Assembly (NCBI GenBank): GCA_021820965.1
Contig: JAKACZ010000008.1
Coordinates: forward strand, 47,880-111,879
Length of the DNA stretch: 64,000 bases
From: Bacillota bacterium
GTDB taxonomy: Bacteria; Bacillota; Sulfobacillia; Sulfobacillales; Sulfobacillaceae
Reading direction: 5' to 3'
The translations under genes were made by a program, and so were the position numbers. This document shows, one piece after another, positions 24,216 through 56,329 of this stretch; within the stretch, counting starts at the first letter, position 1, and the number at the start of each line of letters is the position of its first letter. The notes under the pieces are model-generated. The model worked only from the letters and a program-made list of their open reading frames with translations. It ran no database searches and was not told where the DNA came from.

Positions 24216-25526
24216 TTACATGACGGCTGTCAAGGTGGCATGCAATGGAGGTTCGAGGGCAATATGCCGTGACCCATCGGGATCCCTGACAATTTGGAGC
24301 GATTCGAGGTGACGCACGATCTCATGGCCGGTGGGATGCGTGAGCATGCCACGGGAAGGTGACGGAATGGGAAGTCCCGAACGTCGCAAGCGACGTTCCA
24401 CCAGACTATAGAGCAGGCACGCCAGCAGAATGACATACCCTAAAGCTTCAAGGCGTTCCACTTTTTTGAGAAACCAGCCATCCCCCACCAACAAGGGACC
24501 CTTCACGAAGTGAAAGTGGCGTTCGACACTCGTTTGGGATTTATATTCACGCAGTAATGCTAGGGAGGACAAGCGCTCCTCGGCAATGGTCGTAATTAGG
24601 ACGAACGTTCTTCGTCGTTCGAGTTCCTTTTGTCTTCGGTCTTGGCGGACTGCGCCCACCACGATGTCTACTACCCAGACCACGGTCGTATCCCCTGGCT
24701 GCGGGACTTTCCGGGGACGCCCCCGTCGAGTATGTTGGATTTCCGATCGAACCGTAGCCGTTGCGAAACACCAAGCGCTCTGCCATCCCCTTTGCCACCG
24801 CGACCACGCTGTAGTCGCATCCTTTTCACAGGAAAATCGTTCCTGTCCCAAGGCTTTAGCGGATTCTTCCATTGCCGTCCGAGACTGACTGATCTCCCGA
24901 TCGAGCGTGTGGGTGCGACGTCGATCTAAGGCGTTGGATCGATAGACTACCAACCGGTATTGTTGTTCCTCGATCGTTGCTTGGTGTTCGGAGGCCCAAT
25001 ACTGCGCCGCGTCGCGGCGCTGACCAAAGGTCGGCAATTTGGTCCAGGTGTCCTCCGCCCACGCCTGTTCCTTGACCCGGGTGACCACGCCGAAGTTTTC
25101 GGGACACCGGGAAACAAACGCGATCTTTTGCGCGGCCAACCAGGCCAGGTTCGGACCTGTCACCAGCGCCGCGTCCGCCACATAGATCAATTGAGCCAAC
25201 TGGTCAGGAGCCATCGCCTCGACCAAGCGGTCGAGCCTCTCCCCGTTCAGCGTCTTGTCGGAACGCTGTCCCGACTCCACGGATCCAAACAACGGAACCC
25301 CTTCCCGATTGACAAACAAGGTGAGCCGCAGTGGCTTTAAGTCAGGGCGATGATCTTTCGAGTGGCCATGGGCTGGGTGCACAGAGGCCTTCTCACCCCC
25401 AGGGTACTCCCCGGCGAGAGAACAGGACGTGCTATGCCAATGGCTACTGTCCAACGTGATGCCCTCGCGAACATCTGCCTGAGCGGCAATGGCACTAAAG
25501 ACGCGCGCGGGTTGCGCCCGCTCCAA
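24216..25526 (-). mobile_element. IS1634-type transposase, N-terminally truncated and fused to iscB
   Basis: 436 residues of a DDE transposase whose family usually has about 550. GITLDSSHWHSTSCSLAG (first Asp), HGHSKDHRPDLKPLRLTLFVN, LIYVADAALVTGPNLAW (second Asp), SFLSRCPENF-like FVSRCPENFG, and SQTSVERHFHFVKGPLLV (Glu) are typical IS1634 motifs. The first residues run in another frame across the end of iscB, so the true junction is near 25510. The N-terminal portion of the transposase is absent; the copy is probably inactive. A second, differently broken copy of this family is at 41.3-42.8 kb. Confidence 0.8.
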
Positions 25527-26161
25527 TGTTCAATTTCCAGCGGCACGCCGGTGGCTCCGCAGTAGACACAGGCACGGCCCCACTGTTCCAAGAGGTACTC
25601 CCGCACTTCGTAACCCAGCAATGTCCCCTGCTGGTACTCGACGCCCGTAATCTCCGGGTTCTGCAGCTTTTGCGTGTCGAACTTGACGTGTTCGACACTC
25701 AGATCGGTCATGGGCGCGAGTTTCCGGATTTTCGCTAAGGCATGCAGGGTCTGATCGACCCGGGCTTCCAAGCTCGGCGGCAGCCACCCTCCTTTCCGCT
25801 TCCGGTTCTGAAAGCGGGGTTTGCGATAGCCGGTCTTGCGAGACCGGCGCCCTCGCCGCAACGCCCGGCGGGCATCGAGCCGGGTTTTAATCCCCACTTT
25901 ATGCGTAATCTCCCCCAAGAAAATGGCCTTGGGGCCATGAGCTCCATCGAGTACGATGGCAATCCCGGTTGTCTTGCTCCCGGGATCGAACTTGGCTCGT
26001 AGCGGCTGGAATCGCGATGCGTCGACCGTCCGATCCTTTAAGCGAATCGTGGACGGCGCCATCTTGTGTATGACGGCCCGGCCCCGTTCGAGCAATTGCC
26101 GCGCCCGCTTTTCAGAACACGGCATCAAGGGTTTCTTGTATTGGTCTAAGACGAACACCAT
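25337..26161 (-). pseudogene. iscB: iscB RNA-guided nuclease gene, truncated inside HNH
   Basis: The frame opens with the PLMP domain (KKPLMPCSEKRARQLLERGRA, residues 9-29), then RuvC-I KFDPGSKTTGIAIV (Asp59), an Arg-rich bridge helix at 92-122 (LDARRALRRGRRSRKTGYRK), RuvC-II LSVEHVKFD (Glu157), and the start of HNH CVYCGATGVPLEIEHW (Cys198, Cys201, His212). After about residue 217 (near 25510) the sequence becomes that of the IS1634 transposase, so the rest of HNH, RuvC-III and the target-adjacent-motif domain are gone. IscB is the ancestor-like relative of Cas9 and works with an upstream-encoded omega-RNA. This copy cannot be a complete nuclease. AAGAAGGA precedes the ATG. Confidence 0.85.
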
Positions 26162-26577
26162 AGTCGATGATCCTTCTTTCTGTCCCCTTACGGTCGTTCA
26201 CTCCCGAAAGGGAGGGCTGGTGACGTCCCGCTTGCGCGGGATCTCTCCTCGCCAATGTTCCAACGGGTTGCATCGTCCCTCCGCACGGCTCGCGCTACCC
26301 CGAGCTGGCGTTTAGCGGAGGACCAGAGTCCCGGGACTTCGTGTGAAGCCCGGGAGAGAGCCTGGGTGACCGACGGTAGGAGGAAATCCCCGGATCATCC
26401 CAAAAGCAGGGGGCTGGAGAAGCACCCCAGGGTCTGCACCAAAGGAACGGAGTCCCGGCATAGGGACTAAGGCTGGTCAACCGATGGAGCTCCCGGTTCC
26501 CTCCCTTTCGGGAGTGAACGACCGCAAGCTCCGGCCTCCGTTCGTCCCCGCAAGGGGATCAGGCCGGGGTGGTTGAC
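26162..26577 (-). ncRNA. Omega-RNA region and left end of the IscB element
   Basis: About 415 non-coding bases lie between the iscB start and the element boundary in relE, as expected for the omega-RNA that precedes iscB. The minus strand is densely folded: CCCGGGCTTC-ACAC-GAAGTCCCGGG at 26330-26354, AGTCCC-TATGCC-GGGACT near 26452-26469, ACCCTGGGGTG...CCAGCCCC near 26409-26436, and a CCCGCTTGCGCGGG hairpin near 26226-26241. A perfect 26-bp inverted repeat (26191-26216 and 26499-26524) brackets it. The element end reads GTCAACCACCCCGGCC on the minus strand; the guide would be read from the sequence just beyond, which here is the 3' part of relE. Confidence 0.7.
26191..26524. repeat. 26-bp perfect inverted repeat bracketing the omega-RNA
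   Basis: The arms are 26191-26216 and 26499-26524. The first begins CGGTCGTTCACTCCCGAAAG; the second is its exact reverse complement. One mismatch further, four more bases match. Each arm also contains a small self-complementary CTCCC/GGGAG hairpin, but the CGGTCGTTCA part does not, so the repeat is more than two similar hairpins. In RNA it could close a long-range helix spanning about 280 bases. Confidence 0.85.
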
Positions 26578-26844
26578 CCGGTTGAGCAGTCTGTAAACCT
26601 CATCATCATTGCGCTTGCCAACGAGCAAAACCTGCAATGCGTCCCCTTCCCCTTCCACCTCATACACAGCCCGATATTCCCCGCCGATATCTACACGGTG
26701 GTAAGGGTATCCTTTCAGTTGCTTGGAGTCGTGCGGATACGGCTCGGATAGGAGTCGGAAAATGGTTGTGACAACCTGGCGGAATTGCTTGGGCCGCAGC
26801 GTCTCCAAAAAATCGCGCGCCGCCTTACTCAGTAGGAGTTTCAT
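26467..26844 (-). CDS. relE: RelE-family toxin with element-derived tail
   Basis: A RelE/ParE-fold mRNA interferase: residues 1-90 (KAARDFLETLRPKQFRQVV, YRVDIGGEYRAVYEVEGEGDALQVLLVGKRNDDEVYRLL) match the usual 85-95 residue length. Residues 91-125 (VNHPGLIPLRGRTEAG...) are encoded by the IscB element end, so the insertion sits at the very 3' end of the gene and supplies a new stop codon. In this family C-terminal basic or aromatic residues take part in catalysis, so activity may be changed. It overlaps the antitoxin gene by 20 bases. Confidence 0.83.
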   Translation of the reverse strand: MKLLLSKAARDFLETLRPKQFRQVVTTIFRLLSEPYPHDSKQLKGYPYHRVDIGGEYRAVYEVEGEGDALQVLLVGKRNDDEVYRLLNRVNHPGLIPLRGRTEAGACGRSLPKGREPGAPSVDQP

Positions 26845-27082
26845 TCATACGCTCCGCAATCCAGGATGCCGTTTCTTCCACACTCAAAAGCCCTTCAGAT
26901 GCCGCCTTACGGGCCTGTTCGCCCCACCAAGCGTCCTCCAGCTCCTCGAACCGCTGAAAGTCCTCATAGGACAAGATAACCGCCACAGGACGCCCGCTTT
27001 TCTCCACCAATACCGGCTCTGATTTAATTCCCTCCACTTCGCCAAACTTGTGCCGAATCTCTGTCGCCGTTAATGTCTTCAC
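26825..27082 (-). CDS. Phd/YefM-family antitoxin
   Basis: About 85 residues: VKTLTATEIRHKFGEVEGIKSEPVLVEKSGRPVAVILSYEDFQRFEEL is the Phd/YefM DNA-binding N-terminal domain; the C-terminal helix would wrap the RelE toxin. The GTG at 27082 sits behind AAGGAGG, which is in the longer frame that starts at 27124, so the shorter start is preferred. It would neutralise the overlapping toxin and repress the pair's promoter. Confidence 0.85.
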   Translation of the reverse strand: MKTLTATEIRHKFGEVEGIKSEPVLVEKSGRPVAVILSYEDFQRFEELEDAWWGEQARKAASEGLLSVEETASWIAERMNETPTE

Positions 27083-27372
27083 GCTAAAACCTCCTTCATT
27101 ATTCATTTTACTCACTTTGTTCAAAATGAATACTGTAGAATGTGTTTGCGCCCGAAACTATTTTGGGGACGGGTCGACCTGTCTTGTCTTACAGAAAGCC
27201 TGCGAGAATCCCGATCACCCTTTTAGGCGTCTTCTTTTGTCTTCTTCAGCTTCCTCGCCCACCGCCTCCATGGCACTATTCCCGCCCACACATCGGTCCC
27301 GACCGGCGCACCCCATTTCGTAAAACCCCTCGCTGCTGCCGCTTTGTTCTTATGGCACCGTCTCCCTCGGGG
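27083..27372. other. Spacer between the toxin-antitoxin pair and jetD
   Basis: About 290 bases, of which 27083-27145 is AT-rich and probably holds the phd-relE promoter. The remainder (pyrimidine-rich CTTCTTTTGTCTTCTTCAGC near 27229) lies just beyond the end of the Wadjet operon; no hairpin terminator could be drawn. Confidence 0.35.
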
Positions 27373-28587
27373 TCAAGAATCCGACCATCCGGTGTAATCC
27401 AGCTCTCTAAGGACTTGCGCGACCCGCGACATGGGAATCTGTTCCTGCTCCAGCCGGATGTTATACCCCAGCCGATTTTGCCGCAAATCTTCGTACAGCT
27501 GAGACTCCGCGTCCGTCAAACGAGTGGCCTCCCGACGGGCAGGTCGCTCTTCCACGCCCCAAAATTCCCGATATCTCAACAGGGTATCCCCGTCCATCAA
27601 GATTGATCGGGCGTGGGGCAGATACTGACGGAGCTCATCCAAAATAGCGAACCCGTGGGTATCGATGTCCCCCCAGTAAAAGATTGCTTTTCGCTTCAAC
27701 CAGTCAGCCCCATCAAGCCTTTGAAGCCCATACCCGGCCCCGAATATGGCGATTGCCTCAGGAACCTTGGGGAAGGCTAAAAATTCGATTTCGTTTTCAA
27801 CAATAAAGACGCGACTGATCGGAACATCCAGTCCTGCAAATTCTTCGGATCGCACCGTTAAATCGTGCAGGCCTTGAATATCCAGCAGTGGATTGAGAAA
27901 TCGAAAGCGCACCATGACCGGCTTGGTTCTAAACCCATAGCGCCGTTCAAATCCGCCCGCACCCGCATATTGCGCGTCAACCGCCGCAAGCGGCAACACC
28001 ATGTCCAAAAGGGTACTCAAAAGTCCACGACGGCGCTCGATGAATTTGGTGTCGACCCCGGGAACGTCCACTTGACGCAGGTAGAGATTGGAGCGGGGAT
28101 GTTCCACGGCCCACGCCAACACCGCCAGTATTCTCGACCAATCCGAAGCCGCTTCGAGAACGATGAGTGGATGAGTCCGTGCCCACTCGCCCAAATAGGG
28201 AAAGGCGCCGGCGATTGCGCCGACCAACTCCTGCGCCCGGTTAACCTCGCTGGCCATGCCGAGGATGTCGACCGCGTCAGCCGGGATATCGAAGACCGCC
28301 GCCGTGGGCACGCGGTTTCGGCCCAGCGTGCGGTGCGTGAATTCACGCCATTCCAGACGGTAGCCTCGTCCGCTGCTATTTTTAGCCTCTCCTTGCAGAG
28401 CTGCAATCCAATCCCGAGCATCGGAAAAGTGGTCGAGCCATTCCCGGGACGTCGGCCCCTTAAGGGGAATGCGCATGGGGAAAAGAGCCGGGTCGTTGTC
28501 GGTCAAGACGGCCGTGAGAATGCGACCGCGATCCCATTCACGCCGAACCCGGTCCAACACCATTTGCGCTGAAGTCCATCGGTTCAT
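27373..28587 (-). CDS. jetD: Wadjet JetD (DUF3322/DUF2220, Toprim nuclease subunit)
   Basis: 404 residues. The N-terminal half is the DUF3322-like region (WTSAQMVLDRVRREWDRGRIL). The C-terminal DUF2220/Toprim part shows VFIVENEIEFLAFPKV (catalytic Glu) and KAIFYWGDIDTHGFAILDELRQYLP (DxD). In Wadjet, JetD cuts plasmid DNA once the SMC complex has sensed a small closed circle by loop extrusion. Its ATG overlaps the jetC stop by four bases (ATGA), and it is the last gene of the jetABCD order. Confidence 0.93.
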   Translation of the reverse strand: MNRWTSAQMVLDRVRREWDRGRILTAVLTDNDPALFPMRIPLKGPTSREWLDHFSDARDWIAALQGEAKNSSGRGYRLEWREFTHRTLGRNRVPTAAVFDIPADAVDILGMASEVNRAQELVGAIAGAFPYLGEWARTHPLIVLEAASDWSRILAVLAWAVEHPRSNLYLRQVDVPGVDTKFIERRRGLLSTLLDMVLPLAAVDAQYAGAGGFERRYGFRTKPVMVRFRFLNPLLDIQGLHDLTVRSEEFAGLDVPISRVFIVENEIEFLAFPKVPEAIAIFGAGYGLQRLDGADWLKRKAIFYWGDIDTHGFAILDELRQYLPHARSILMDGDTLLRYREFWGVEERPARREATRLTDAESQLYEDLRQNRLGYNIRLEQEQIPMSRVAQVLRELDYTGWSDS

Positions 28588-38574: not shown

Positions 38575-39395
38575 TCGATAACCCCTCTCACAAAATAGTG
38601 CCTCCGGGGTTAGCTGACGGGTTCGGGCGAGAGGAGCCCTACAGTGACGATTCACCCCTCCAATGGTTCCCCCGGTTGTCAACGCATGACAATTCGGCCT
38701 GGTTATGGTAGAGGAGGTCGAACACATTGTCAGATCCCGCTTTCTGTCCTCATCGGCCGCGTCAGGAACCTGGACAGGACCATTGAGCGGGTTAAGCTCA
38801 ACGGGCCAAATTCCTACCCAATCCCACATATCGCCAAAACGACGATTTTCGCACTACGCTTCTTGCCTCACGTTGGCCTATCCACATGCGGCTAATCTTA
38901 CCCCTATTGAATGACAGCCGCCAAATTATGTCATCGTCATCACGCACTGCCTGGAGACTATCGCCCGAAGAAAAATTTCGACCGGTGCAATTCAGTGCGA
39001 GAAAGCACGCTACGGTGCGAGCCCGTCGTGCGATGGAAACAGAGGTGCGTCGACTGCTGTCCCCGGCTTCCCAGGTGCTTTTTCGCACCTCCTCGAGCAA
39101 GAGGTTAAGACACAAGAAGTGCATGATGCAGGAGCGCAGCTTACGCCCGCCACTCCAACAATAATCATCGTGAACATTCATGACACAGAATTCTCCGTGG
39201 CAACCAAACTTTGTCTTCATACTCCAAATAATCCGACGGCTATAGTGGCAACTGGCGTCTTCTATTGCGGATTAGTGGCACTCCCAAGCCATCCCCATAT
39301 GGTGTCTGCATTCGTTGTAGCTTGAAAAGATATGCCTATCCTCGTATATTGGTTCTATTAGTTGTGTGAATTGAATGAATGAGAGGTCTTTCATC
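38575..39395. other. Divergent intergenic region
   Basis: About 820 bases between the 3D-domain gene and the S53 protease gene. No frame shows a known family. The AT-rich stretch at 39325-39375 (AAAAGATATGCCTATCCTCG then TATATTGG) is a likely promoter area for the protease. Confidence 0.4.
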
Positions 39396-45535: not shown

Positions 45536-45720
45536 AGAACGCGTCCGACCTCATGTCAGAGAGGATTTTCTTGGGCTCACGGAGGATCGGGGGGACATCC
45601 TCTTGCACCGTGTCCCAGACAATGTCGGGGTCGACATGGCCATAGTCGTGAGCCACGCGGTGCAGCCAGTAACCATGATGTGCTAGCCGGTGTAAGTCCG
45701 GCCGCACGGACTGCCCGTCC
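45536..45720 (-). pseudogene. HepT (DUF86 HEPN toxin) C-terminal relic
   Basis: The minus strand translates to RPDLHRLAHHGYWLHRVAHDYGHVDPDIVW then DTVQEDVPPIL, ending at a TAA. VAHDYG.VD..IVW..VQ.D.P.L is the C-terminal pattern of HepT/DUF86 HEPN RNases (normally an R....HxY motif). The usual Arg before the His is replaced in this stretch, the N-terminal 80 residues are absent, and no MntA-like nucleotidyltransferase antitoxin is adjacent. A broken toxin gene. Confidence 0.6.
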
Positions 45721-46690
45721 GAGCGCGTAGTGAATCGGACGTTCAGCGTGGGTGCCCCGCTGGGCGCAAGCTCCGAGGATCATGCCTCCGCCGCCTGCGG
45801 GTGGGACCCATCAGGGGAGGCTAACGAGTGACCGGGCCGTAGCATCAAGCGAATGCTGCCGTGTCGAAATTCCGTCCCCGGCAGAAATGGGTGCCGGGAT
45901 GTACAGGAGGCCGAGCCTGGGCGACCTGGGCGAAGGCTGGTAGCTTTGGGGAAGAGACGGGCACACGCACCACTATCACTGCGTTTGGCAATAAATGGTG
46001 CCAAATGCGGGTTATAGTCAATGAATTGGCGAATGCGCCCTTCGAGCGCTGCGACCGAGGCAGAACTGGCCCCTTTTATTGAGAGTCCAGCGGACGAGGA
46101 TACTAAACCAGCACTCGATCGGGTTTAACCAGGAACAGTTCTTGGGGGTATAGAGAAAACAGATGGAATGGCTTTCCATCTCTCAGAACTTTTTCGACCT
46201 ATACACGTTAACTTATGAAAGTGTGAAGGCCGCTGGCGGGGTGGCGCCGTAATCGCCGGGTGTCCTAAGCATTCGATTGCGGTTGCGATGACTGTCAATG
46301 ATGGTTGCCAGCCCGATGCTGCTGTCACAGGACCCACTCATCTCCTGATGCTTTTGGCGCTGGGCCACGAGGATTTCGTTGGCCTTTTGTGCAAGGTTGC
46401 TGGAATCGCGTCAACCTAACGCGTCGCGCAGGGCGTAACAGGGAATATGGGTGCGATTGCGAGCGAAATAGCCGATCAGTTGCACGAGCCTGTCTTCCGA
46501 TTAGTCCGTTGACAAAAAACTCGAGGGCCGTCGTAGAAAGAAAAAGGTTTAAAGGGGCCTTCCGATGGATAACCATCCGGCCGTGTTCCCATAGCATCCC
46601 CGCGCTTCTCGCTATGAGGCATCGGGGGTTTTTGATGTCGACCCGAAACGAATACCTGACGATGTTTCTCCGCACCACGCTCGCTATGCC
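45721..46690. other. Accessory region without a recognisable gene
   Basis: About 970 bases with overlapping short frames on both strands, none of known family. It contains copy 2 of the 43-bp hairpin repeat. It resembles the other decayed accessory stretches of this window. Confidence 0.35.
45975..46017. repeat. 43-bp dispersed hairpin repeat, copy 2
   Basis: Same orientation as 42850-42892, two mismatches in 43 bases. It carries the TTTGGC/GCCAAA hairpin and ends GGGTTATAG. Here no transposase is next to it, so it may be a stand-alone small repeat. Confidence 0.8.
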
Positions 46691-55656: not shown

Positions 55657-56329
55657 GGCAGGTATCCCCTTTCGTCACCACCACTACGGTCGGCCCACCC
55701 GCGTGAACCACCTCTGAAGATAGAAAGCGAACCATTGCGCCACCAGTCCGTTCCGATCATCCGCCACTGAAAGCGGCGTCATACCGTTCTTCTGGGACCT
55801 TGGCATTATAGATGAGCCATTGGCAGCCAATCCAACGCAATAAAATTTGTTGTTGTTCTTTGTCAGGGTAATCGATAGCCGTCGCATCGGGCACCCCTCC
55901 TACGCCGATTCTCTTTTCCATTATCTCATGAGGCTACGATGAACACCACGAAATGATGTCGGCGTCGCATGCCGTATGTGCGCTTCGGTTGCAGATTGTT
56001 TTTGTGACTAAATGCCGGCGGTAAGTCTTAACACCCCAGATCCTTGACGCCTTGCGGGAGCCTTCGGGGAGATTCTCGCGGATTGGCGTTGCACCCTCAT
56101 TGAATGCGGCGGGGAAGCCGATTAGGTCCATCTCCTCGTGGGCATCCACCCAGTGCTCAATATTTCCACCTTGATCAACAACTGAAATCCGCCAGTTTGC
56201 GTCGCATACGGAATCGTGTCGCGGCTCACTGGCGAAAGTTCTACGGAGAACCTTACTTTTGGTACGGTGCCTATTATGTCGGAAGTGTTGGAGGAGCATC
56301 CTTGGAGACCGTAACGCTACGTTTTAGCC
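55657..56329. other. Region without a recognisable gene
   Basis: About 670 bases. The minus strand near 55700-55890 has short frames (VADDRNGLVAQWFAFYLQRW) without a known family. No promoter or terminator identified. Confidence 0.35.

Follow-up and report, generated by a model that had tools for sequence, protein, structure and literature searches.

Gene content of the locus

We examined the genes and structured RNAs of the window, that is, the whole stretch of 64,000 nucleotides that was analysed, and found five features following one another on the minus strand: a Phd/YefM-type antitoxin gene (27124-26825), a RelE/ParE-type toxin gene (26844-26467), a guide RNA of the IscB type (omega-RNA, HEARO in Rfam; 26577-26238), the 5' part of an iscB gene (26161-25526) and an IS1634-family transposase gene (25526-24216). 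The window also contained a SAM riboswitch (2736-2840), a c-di-AMP riboswitch (38584-38709) and a piece of a group II intron (45684-45847).

The truncated iscB gene and the transposase

The iscB part (25526..26161, minus strand) comprised 212 codons and ended at the Glu-His of the HNH domain. It matched the Pfam RRXRR domain (PF14239, E 8.5e-66), which covers the RRXRR/RuvC N-terminal region, and its residues 2-209 corresponded to positions 1-206 of the 314 positions of the NCBIfam guided_IscB profile (NF040563, 283 bits), so that the complete HNH domain, RuvC-III and the C-terminal domain were absent. Both profiles agree with the sequence-only reading of this DNA, which had recognised the start of IscB from the PLMP motif to the first HNH cysteines and the Glu-His. 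When we compared the window with a panel of 68 IscB proteins, 54 of the matches stopped at base 25526, at the Glu-His, and the other 14 extended past it, the furthest to 25343, within the out-of-frame tail described below. Four IscB proteins encoded in the same genome could also be aligned to the fragment as far as the first HNH cysteines. In the alignment to OgeuIscB, residue 201 of the window protein already corresponded to residue 237 of chain 7utn_D and residue 238 of 7xht_A, and by extrapolation the break lies at about residue 248 in OgeuIscB numbering, not near residue 217 as had been predicted.

Downstream of the break the reading frame stayed open through an out-of-frame tail (25337..25525, minus strand), giving an ORF of 274 aa whose last 62 residues were transposase DNA read out of frame, in the region covered by the IS1634 profile. 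We found no C-terminal part of IscB beyond the transposase or elsewhere: across the whole 64 kb, none of the 68 panel proteins gave a match starting past residue 200 that was better than E 0.019. Searching the window with the right ends of sister elements returned only palindrome-related sequence (26183-26558), a match to the end of the guide RNA at 26242-26261, and some short chance stretches. The truncation is settled by the sequence profiles, and by these the window iscB is a fragment of an IscB gene and not an IscB nuclease. Such a protein would not work, since it has lost the HNH domain, RuvC-III and the C-terminal target-motif domain. Separately, a stretch at 46581-46655 (minus strand) weakly resembled the N-terminal ~25 residues of many of the 68 panel proteins (best E 1.5e-4), and no ORF with a clear IscB match was present at that site.

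The transposase gene (24216..25526, minus strand) was assigned to the IS1634 family by NF033559 (191.6 bits). Residues 5-425 of its product corresponded to profile positions 111-466 of 483; the DDE transposase is incomplete and lacks the N-terminal ~110 profile positions. The earlier reading had placed an abrupt switch to an IS1634 transposase at about 25510; the transposase is confirmed and the switch point moves to 25526, the base at which both iscB and the transposase gene are truncated. A clean insertion of an IS into iscB was ruled out, with the transposase also truncated and no IscB C-terminus found. Because the transposase itself lacks its first ~110 profile positions, we favour a rearrangement between two elements, and the second half of the nuclease gene was probably lost in such a rearrangement with an IS1634-family element.

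The guide RNA

The guide RNA (26238..26577, minus strand) lay directly upstream of the iscB start at 26161, on the same strand. The RNA begins at 26577, at the conserved GUCA of HEARO, and this 5' end also marks the left end of the element. In cmscan with E-value mode, the HEARO model (RF02033) matched 26577-26238 over positions 1-211 of 211 (66.4 bits, E 3.3e-13), a further search returned the same ends, and in a whole-genome search with the same model the window RNA scored 61.2 bits with its 5' end placed at 26522. At the Rfam gathering threshold no guide RNA was found at the locus, as 66.4 bits is below the HEARO cut-off of 83, probably because of the insertions that the window RNA carries. 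Two guide RNAs of the same genome that lie beside a full or nearly full iscB (C41, 75.9 bits; C79, 67.2 bits) also scored below this cut-off. The covariance-model check proposed earlier thus recovered the RNA at full length, though it was missed at the cut-off; with no IscB C-terminus seen past the transposase either, neither of the two outcomes that would have refuted the earlier reading was obtained. Passages of PMC9755519 tie HEARO RNAs to IscB omega-RNAs and describe reprogramming of their 5' spacer part. The region upstream of iscB, earlier described as rich in hairpins, was indeed strongly structured, with a fold z-score of -5.6 and none of 100 shuffles as good.

We then used a covariance model (R1) built from an alignment of 15 guide RNAs from relatives, with the window excluded from training. 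Compensatory changes were present in 20 of the 42 pairs predicted by R1. The window RNA matched the model with 150 bits (E 3.8e-44) and forms 40 of the 42 base pairs, compared with 42, 39, 42, 40, 41, 40, 40 and 32 pairs at the eight scored loci with a full or nearly full iscB, five of which belonged to the training set (the three outside it had 40, 40 and 32). Damaged loci kept from 19 (C98) to 40 of the 42 pairs, that is, from decayed to fresh. The R1 search was given 32 loci, of which 28 matched and four did not (L079, L080, L084 and L250 (damaged C71 locus)); eight genus loci were left out of it. At four of these the iscB-like frame is open, two of them having another type of RNA, and at the other four iscB is broken or absent. 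By its match to both models, the guide RNA is complete in sequence and predicted fold, which upholds the earlier view of an apparently complete omega-RNA next to an iscB cut in its HNH domain. We also observed a second, weak R1 match (24.9 bits) just upstream of the C4a guide RNA (L075 3985-4224, G000:C4).

Repeats in and near the guide RNA

Two kinds of repeat were inserted in the window RNA. A dispersed 30-nt palindromic repeat occupied a hairpin loop of the RNA (26499..26528, minus strand), with a second copy in opposite orientation between the RNA and the iscB start (26187..26216, minus strand), and one copy of a 47-49-nt unit, present in single and tandem copies at other places in the genome, was located in a conserved hairpin (26364..26412, minus strand). 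The two palindrome copies form an inverted repeat with arms of 30 nt that are 97% complementary. An inverted repeat of 26 bp had been said to bracket the upstream region; the arms are longer than that, with the upper one inside the RNA and the lower one between RNA and iscB, so they do not bracket the RNA. Nor is the region untouched, as had been supposed: both the palindrome and the 47-49-nt unit were absent from the C39, C4a and C99 guide RNAs. The C79 guide RNA, with a nearly full iscB beside it, carried the 47-nt unit at the same place as the window RNA, so the unit need not disable the RNA. The two natural insertions show where the guide RNA may tolerate extra sequence.

Elsewhere in the genome the 47-bp unit was present in at least 15 places, single or in tandem with up to 6 copies (L085 2556-2839 and 10740-10880; L086 2517-2703; L264, L265, L266 and L268). 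It looks like a REP-like hairpin repeat, and at 4 of 7 loci it was located within ~110 bases of Y1/tnpA-type genes, the one on C89 being an IS200/IS605 transposase. The 30-nt palindrome was likewise dispersed over the genome (L076 1993-2027, L077 1709-1743, L079 2328-2362, L087-L092), and followed three iscB copies at a distance of 23-45 bases from their end. Finally, the window contained at ~56036-56313 (G000:C95:103915-104192) a broken Y1 transposase remnant in two pieces, one of them with internal stops.

The probable insertion site

The toxin and antitoxin families are adjacent on the same strand. The antitoxin ORF (26825..27124, minus strand; PF02604, TIGR01552; start codon uncertain) is upstream of the toxin ORF (26467..26844, minus strand; PF05016), which encodes 125 aa: 89 codons of native toxin sequence (26578-26844) and 36 codons in the guide RNA, so that read-through replaces the C-terminal end of the toxin. 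Ten other toxin relatives that we inspected were 86-89 aa long, and 6 of the 10 end in RMKG, RMKR, RMLD or RTKG. An uninterrupted toxin paralogue was present in the same genome (G000:C99, L134; 424 of 567 DNA identities). Its alignment stopped at window base 26578, adjoining the first base of the RNA, and beyond this breakpoint the paralogue reads ATGAAAGGTTAG, its last codons and stop, with ATGA at the breakpoint.

According to PMC9755519, the RNA carries the guide as its 5' part. For the window we accordingly predict a guide that is the 3' part of the toxin gene (26578..26597, minus strand), up to the base at which the L134 alignment ends. In characterised IscBs the guide is ~16-20 nt long, and we take about 16-20 nt here. 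The target motif of the window element itself is unreadable, because its right end is gone. Of 21 right ends of sister elements, which we positioned visually on a shared end sequence, 18 adjoin ATGA or GTGA and the remaining 3 ATGG or GTGG. From the paralogue breakpoint at ATGA together with these sister ends, it is most likely that the element entered the RelE/ParE-type toxin gene at an ATGA motif close to its 3' end, with the end of that gene as guide; this rests on the sister elements and on a single paralogue that is frameshifted and shares only 75% identity across the aligned DNA. Besides the inferred target motif, the locus thus offers a paralogue of the target gene that has no insertion. 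By manual count, 5 of the last 16 nt of the guide are mismatched at the paralogue site, which may therefore be targeted poorly.

We searched eight genomes of the genus for the guide followed by ATGA with up to 3 mismatches and obtained 7 places, namely the locus itself and 6 others with exactly 3 mismatches each; a reversed control pattern gave 1 place. None of the 7 was a second toxin-gene site. Four of the 6 other places fell in a conserved stretch that presumably belongs to a transposase, which it resembles, and the remaining 2 had no toxin similarity; we judged all six to be chance matches and not targets, none being a toxin gene. Viral contigs, searched for the guide pattern only, gave an exact 17-base match, which was also not in a toxin gene and was rejected as chance. 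The toxin-antitoxin DNA had no matching plasmid record. A scan of 25000-27400 for sigma-70 promoters gave none, with 0.7 expected, and is uninformative for this organism.

In 8 of the 21 IscB elements (e.g. L076, L140, L147, L148, L156, L198, L226, L153), the ATG or GTG adjoining the right end starts an ORF of at least 184 aa. The target motif RTGA may thus often double as a start codon, in which case the guide would be a gene's 5' leader.

Other guide-RNA loci in the genome and genus

We counted HEARO matches at E <= 0.001 and found 12 in the genome of the window. As the earlier reading had suggested looking for, complete iscB genes were present elsewhere in it: three loci had a full iscB frame (C4a, C39, C41) and one a nearly full frame with an altered C-terminal end (C79). 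The gene was broken at C99, C14, C71, C61 and in the window, and absent within 2.6 kb at C31, C4b and a second C31 locus. The C79 guide RNA was 97% identical to the window RNA over 291 nt. At C61 we observed a deletion derivative in which a complete guide RNA (L081 2703-2997, G000:C61) is followed, in the next 320 bases, by only the last 91 IscB residues.

Across the eight genus genomes there were 36 HEARO matches, in 6 genomes. Apart from the window and excluding a weaker match (C98), the 35 loci comprised 13 with an open iscB-like frame (including C79, as well as G006:C155 of 452 aa and G002:C10 of 372 aa, which are only ~32% similar), 14 with a broken iscB (among them, with uncertainty, G006:C72, whose 471-aa frame has matched pieces that change frame), 6 with none (among them, also uncertain, G006:C244 with only 1,022 bases behind it) and 2 at a contig end. 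Hence 20 of the 33 other scorable guide-RNA loci had no intact iscB, a fraction such as ordinary decay would give. Pieces of iscB that have no guide RNA were also found (e.g. C6:17246, C4:112833); as loci that keep the RNA and iscB-only pieces both occur, loss runs both ways. The nearest IscB loci were from Sulfobacillus or Bacillota.

Origin of the locus and possible use of the guide RNA in trans

We consider it probable, at roughly 0.84, that an IscB element inserted at ATGA towards the 3' end of the toxin gene and that the 3' half of iscB disappeared afterwards, probably through rearrangement with an IS1634-family element, while the predicted guide RNA stayed complete; the order of these two events is one that we infer. 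Since the RNA follows the toxin on the same strand, any transcript of it would form the downstream portion of the toxin-antitoxin mRNA. Such an RNA, were it produced, could associate with an IscB encoded elsewhere in the genome, and its targets would then be un-inserted copies of the toxin gene. This transcription from the toxin-antitoxin operon and use by other IscBs we likewise infer.

The window has the arrangement of a trans-encoded system, with a complete predicted guide RNA that has no nuclease of its own and intact IscB elsewhere in the genome, and the four other loci with a full or nearly full iscB make use in trans possible. We nevertheless regard it as unlikely that the orphan RNA functions as a transcript downstream of the toxin-antitoxin genes, with which other IscBs cut un-inserted toxin copies. 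The completeness of the RNA, the related RNAs at those four loci (among them that of C79), its position behind the toxin on the same strand and a guide that adjoins the inferred ATGA would all fit a working RNA; against this, no toxin gene was among the six off-locus guide places in the eight genomes, and the range from 40 down to 19 of 42 pairs at other damaged loci looks like neutral decay. The guide RNA is most likely a young relic without selection, and its use in trans is a real but minority possibility. More doubtful again is a bolder form, in which a guide RNA captured by the regulation of the toxin-antitoxin operon would arm other IscBs against every un-inserted toxin copy; if true, a broken element would still protect its insertion site and police incoming toxin copies, giving orphan omega-RNAs a CRISPR-like role. 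The main relevance of a guide RNA of this kind would be to un-inserted alleles that come in from outside. Whether guide RNAs persist after the loss of their nucleases and are used in trans decides how long these elements can hold a site, and whether they were a stage on the way to CRISPR, with its separate guides and nuclease. With 12 guide-RNA loci and 4 with a full or nearly full iscB, this genome is a compact test of trans use.

The join at 25526 could also be an assembly error that glued half an iscB to half a transposase gene, as both genes are truncated at the same base, repeats are abundant in the genome and the assembly has 101 contigs with 5.58% estimated contamination. We hold this to be quite improbable. 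The exact fused 274-aa protein was found from 3 contigs, which argues against a single assembly error, with the reservation that these may include the contig of the window itself or stem from one sample (the longest is 111,907 bases and the window's own 111,879 bases). Moreover, the transposase had no close second copy in the genome able to collapse the assembly (the best-scoring other match was 56% identical, with one short piece at 75%), and broken iscB copies are common anyway.

As for the surviving iscB piece, its dN/dS was 0.10 against C39, 0.14 against C41 and 0.12 against C4a, and the intact C39 and C41 genes gave 0.12 between them. In this crude test (dS 1.1-1.8, so that a short period without selection would stay invisible) the piece bears no sign of relaxed selection or of a long time without it, and for this reason the break is probably recent. 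A truncated IscB that still works, for example as a guide-RNA-binding repressor comparable to nuclease-dead TnpB-like proteins, would suit the frame open to 274 aa and the low dN/dS, yet it is hardly credible for a protein missing most of HNH, RuvC-III and the C-terminal domain and ending in 62 residues of out-of-frame transposase DNA, while history before the break explains the low dN/dS. A recent, undirected loss explains what is seen.

Comparison with known systems

The window RNA resembles HEARO (RF02033) in its full-length match, its 5' end at GUCA and its position directly upstream of iscB on the same strand, and differs from it in the palindrome in one hairpin, the 47-49-nt unit in another and a score below the family cut-off. 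The window protein shares with IscB (NF040563; OgeuIscB, 7utn and 7xht) the PLMP motif, the RRXRR bridge, the first HNH cysteines and the Glu-His, but has no remainder of HNH, no RuvC-III and no C-terminal target-motif domain. Like IsrB, the relatives of IscB without HNH, it has no complete HNH domain; IsrB keeps the whole RuvC fold, whereas the window protein stops inside HNH and so lacks RuvC-III too.

Altae-Tran, in 2021, reportedly described stand-alone or trans-encoded omega-RNAs for IscB elements in Ktedonobacter racemifer, and we therefore do not call orphan guide RNAs new; our literature searches on IscB with standalone omega RNA, IscB in Sulfobacillus and IscB in Ktedonobacter racemifer found nothing. 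The window shares with the K. racemifer case a guide RNA that has no adjacent intact iscB, in a genome with several IscB genes, but it keeps a piece of iscB, the cause of the loss is visible, and it is known from sequence alone. What is new here is the site of the element, which is most likely an ATGA shortly before a RelE/ParE-type toxin gene ends.
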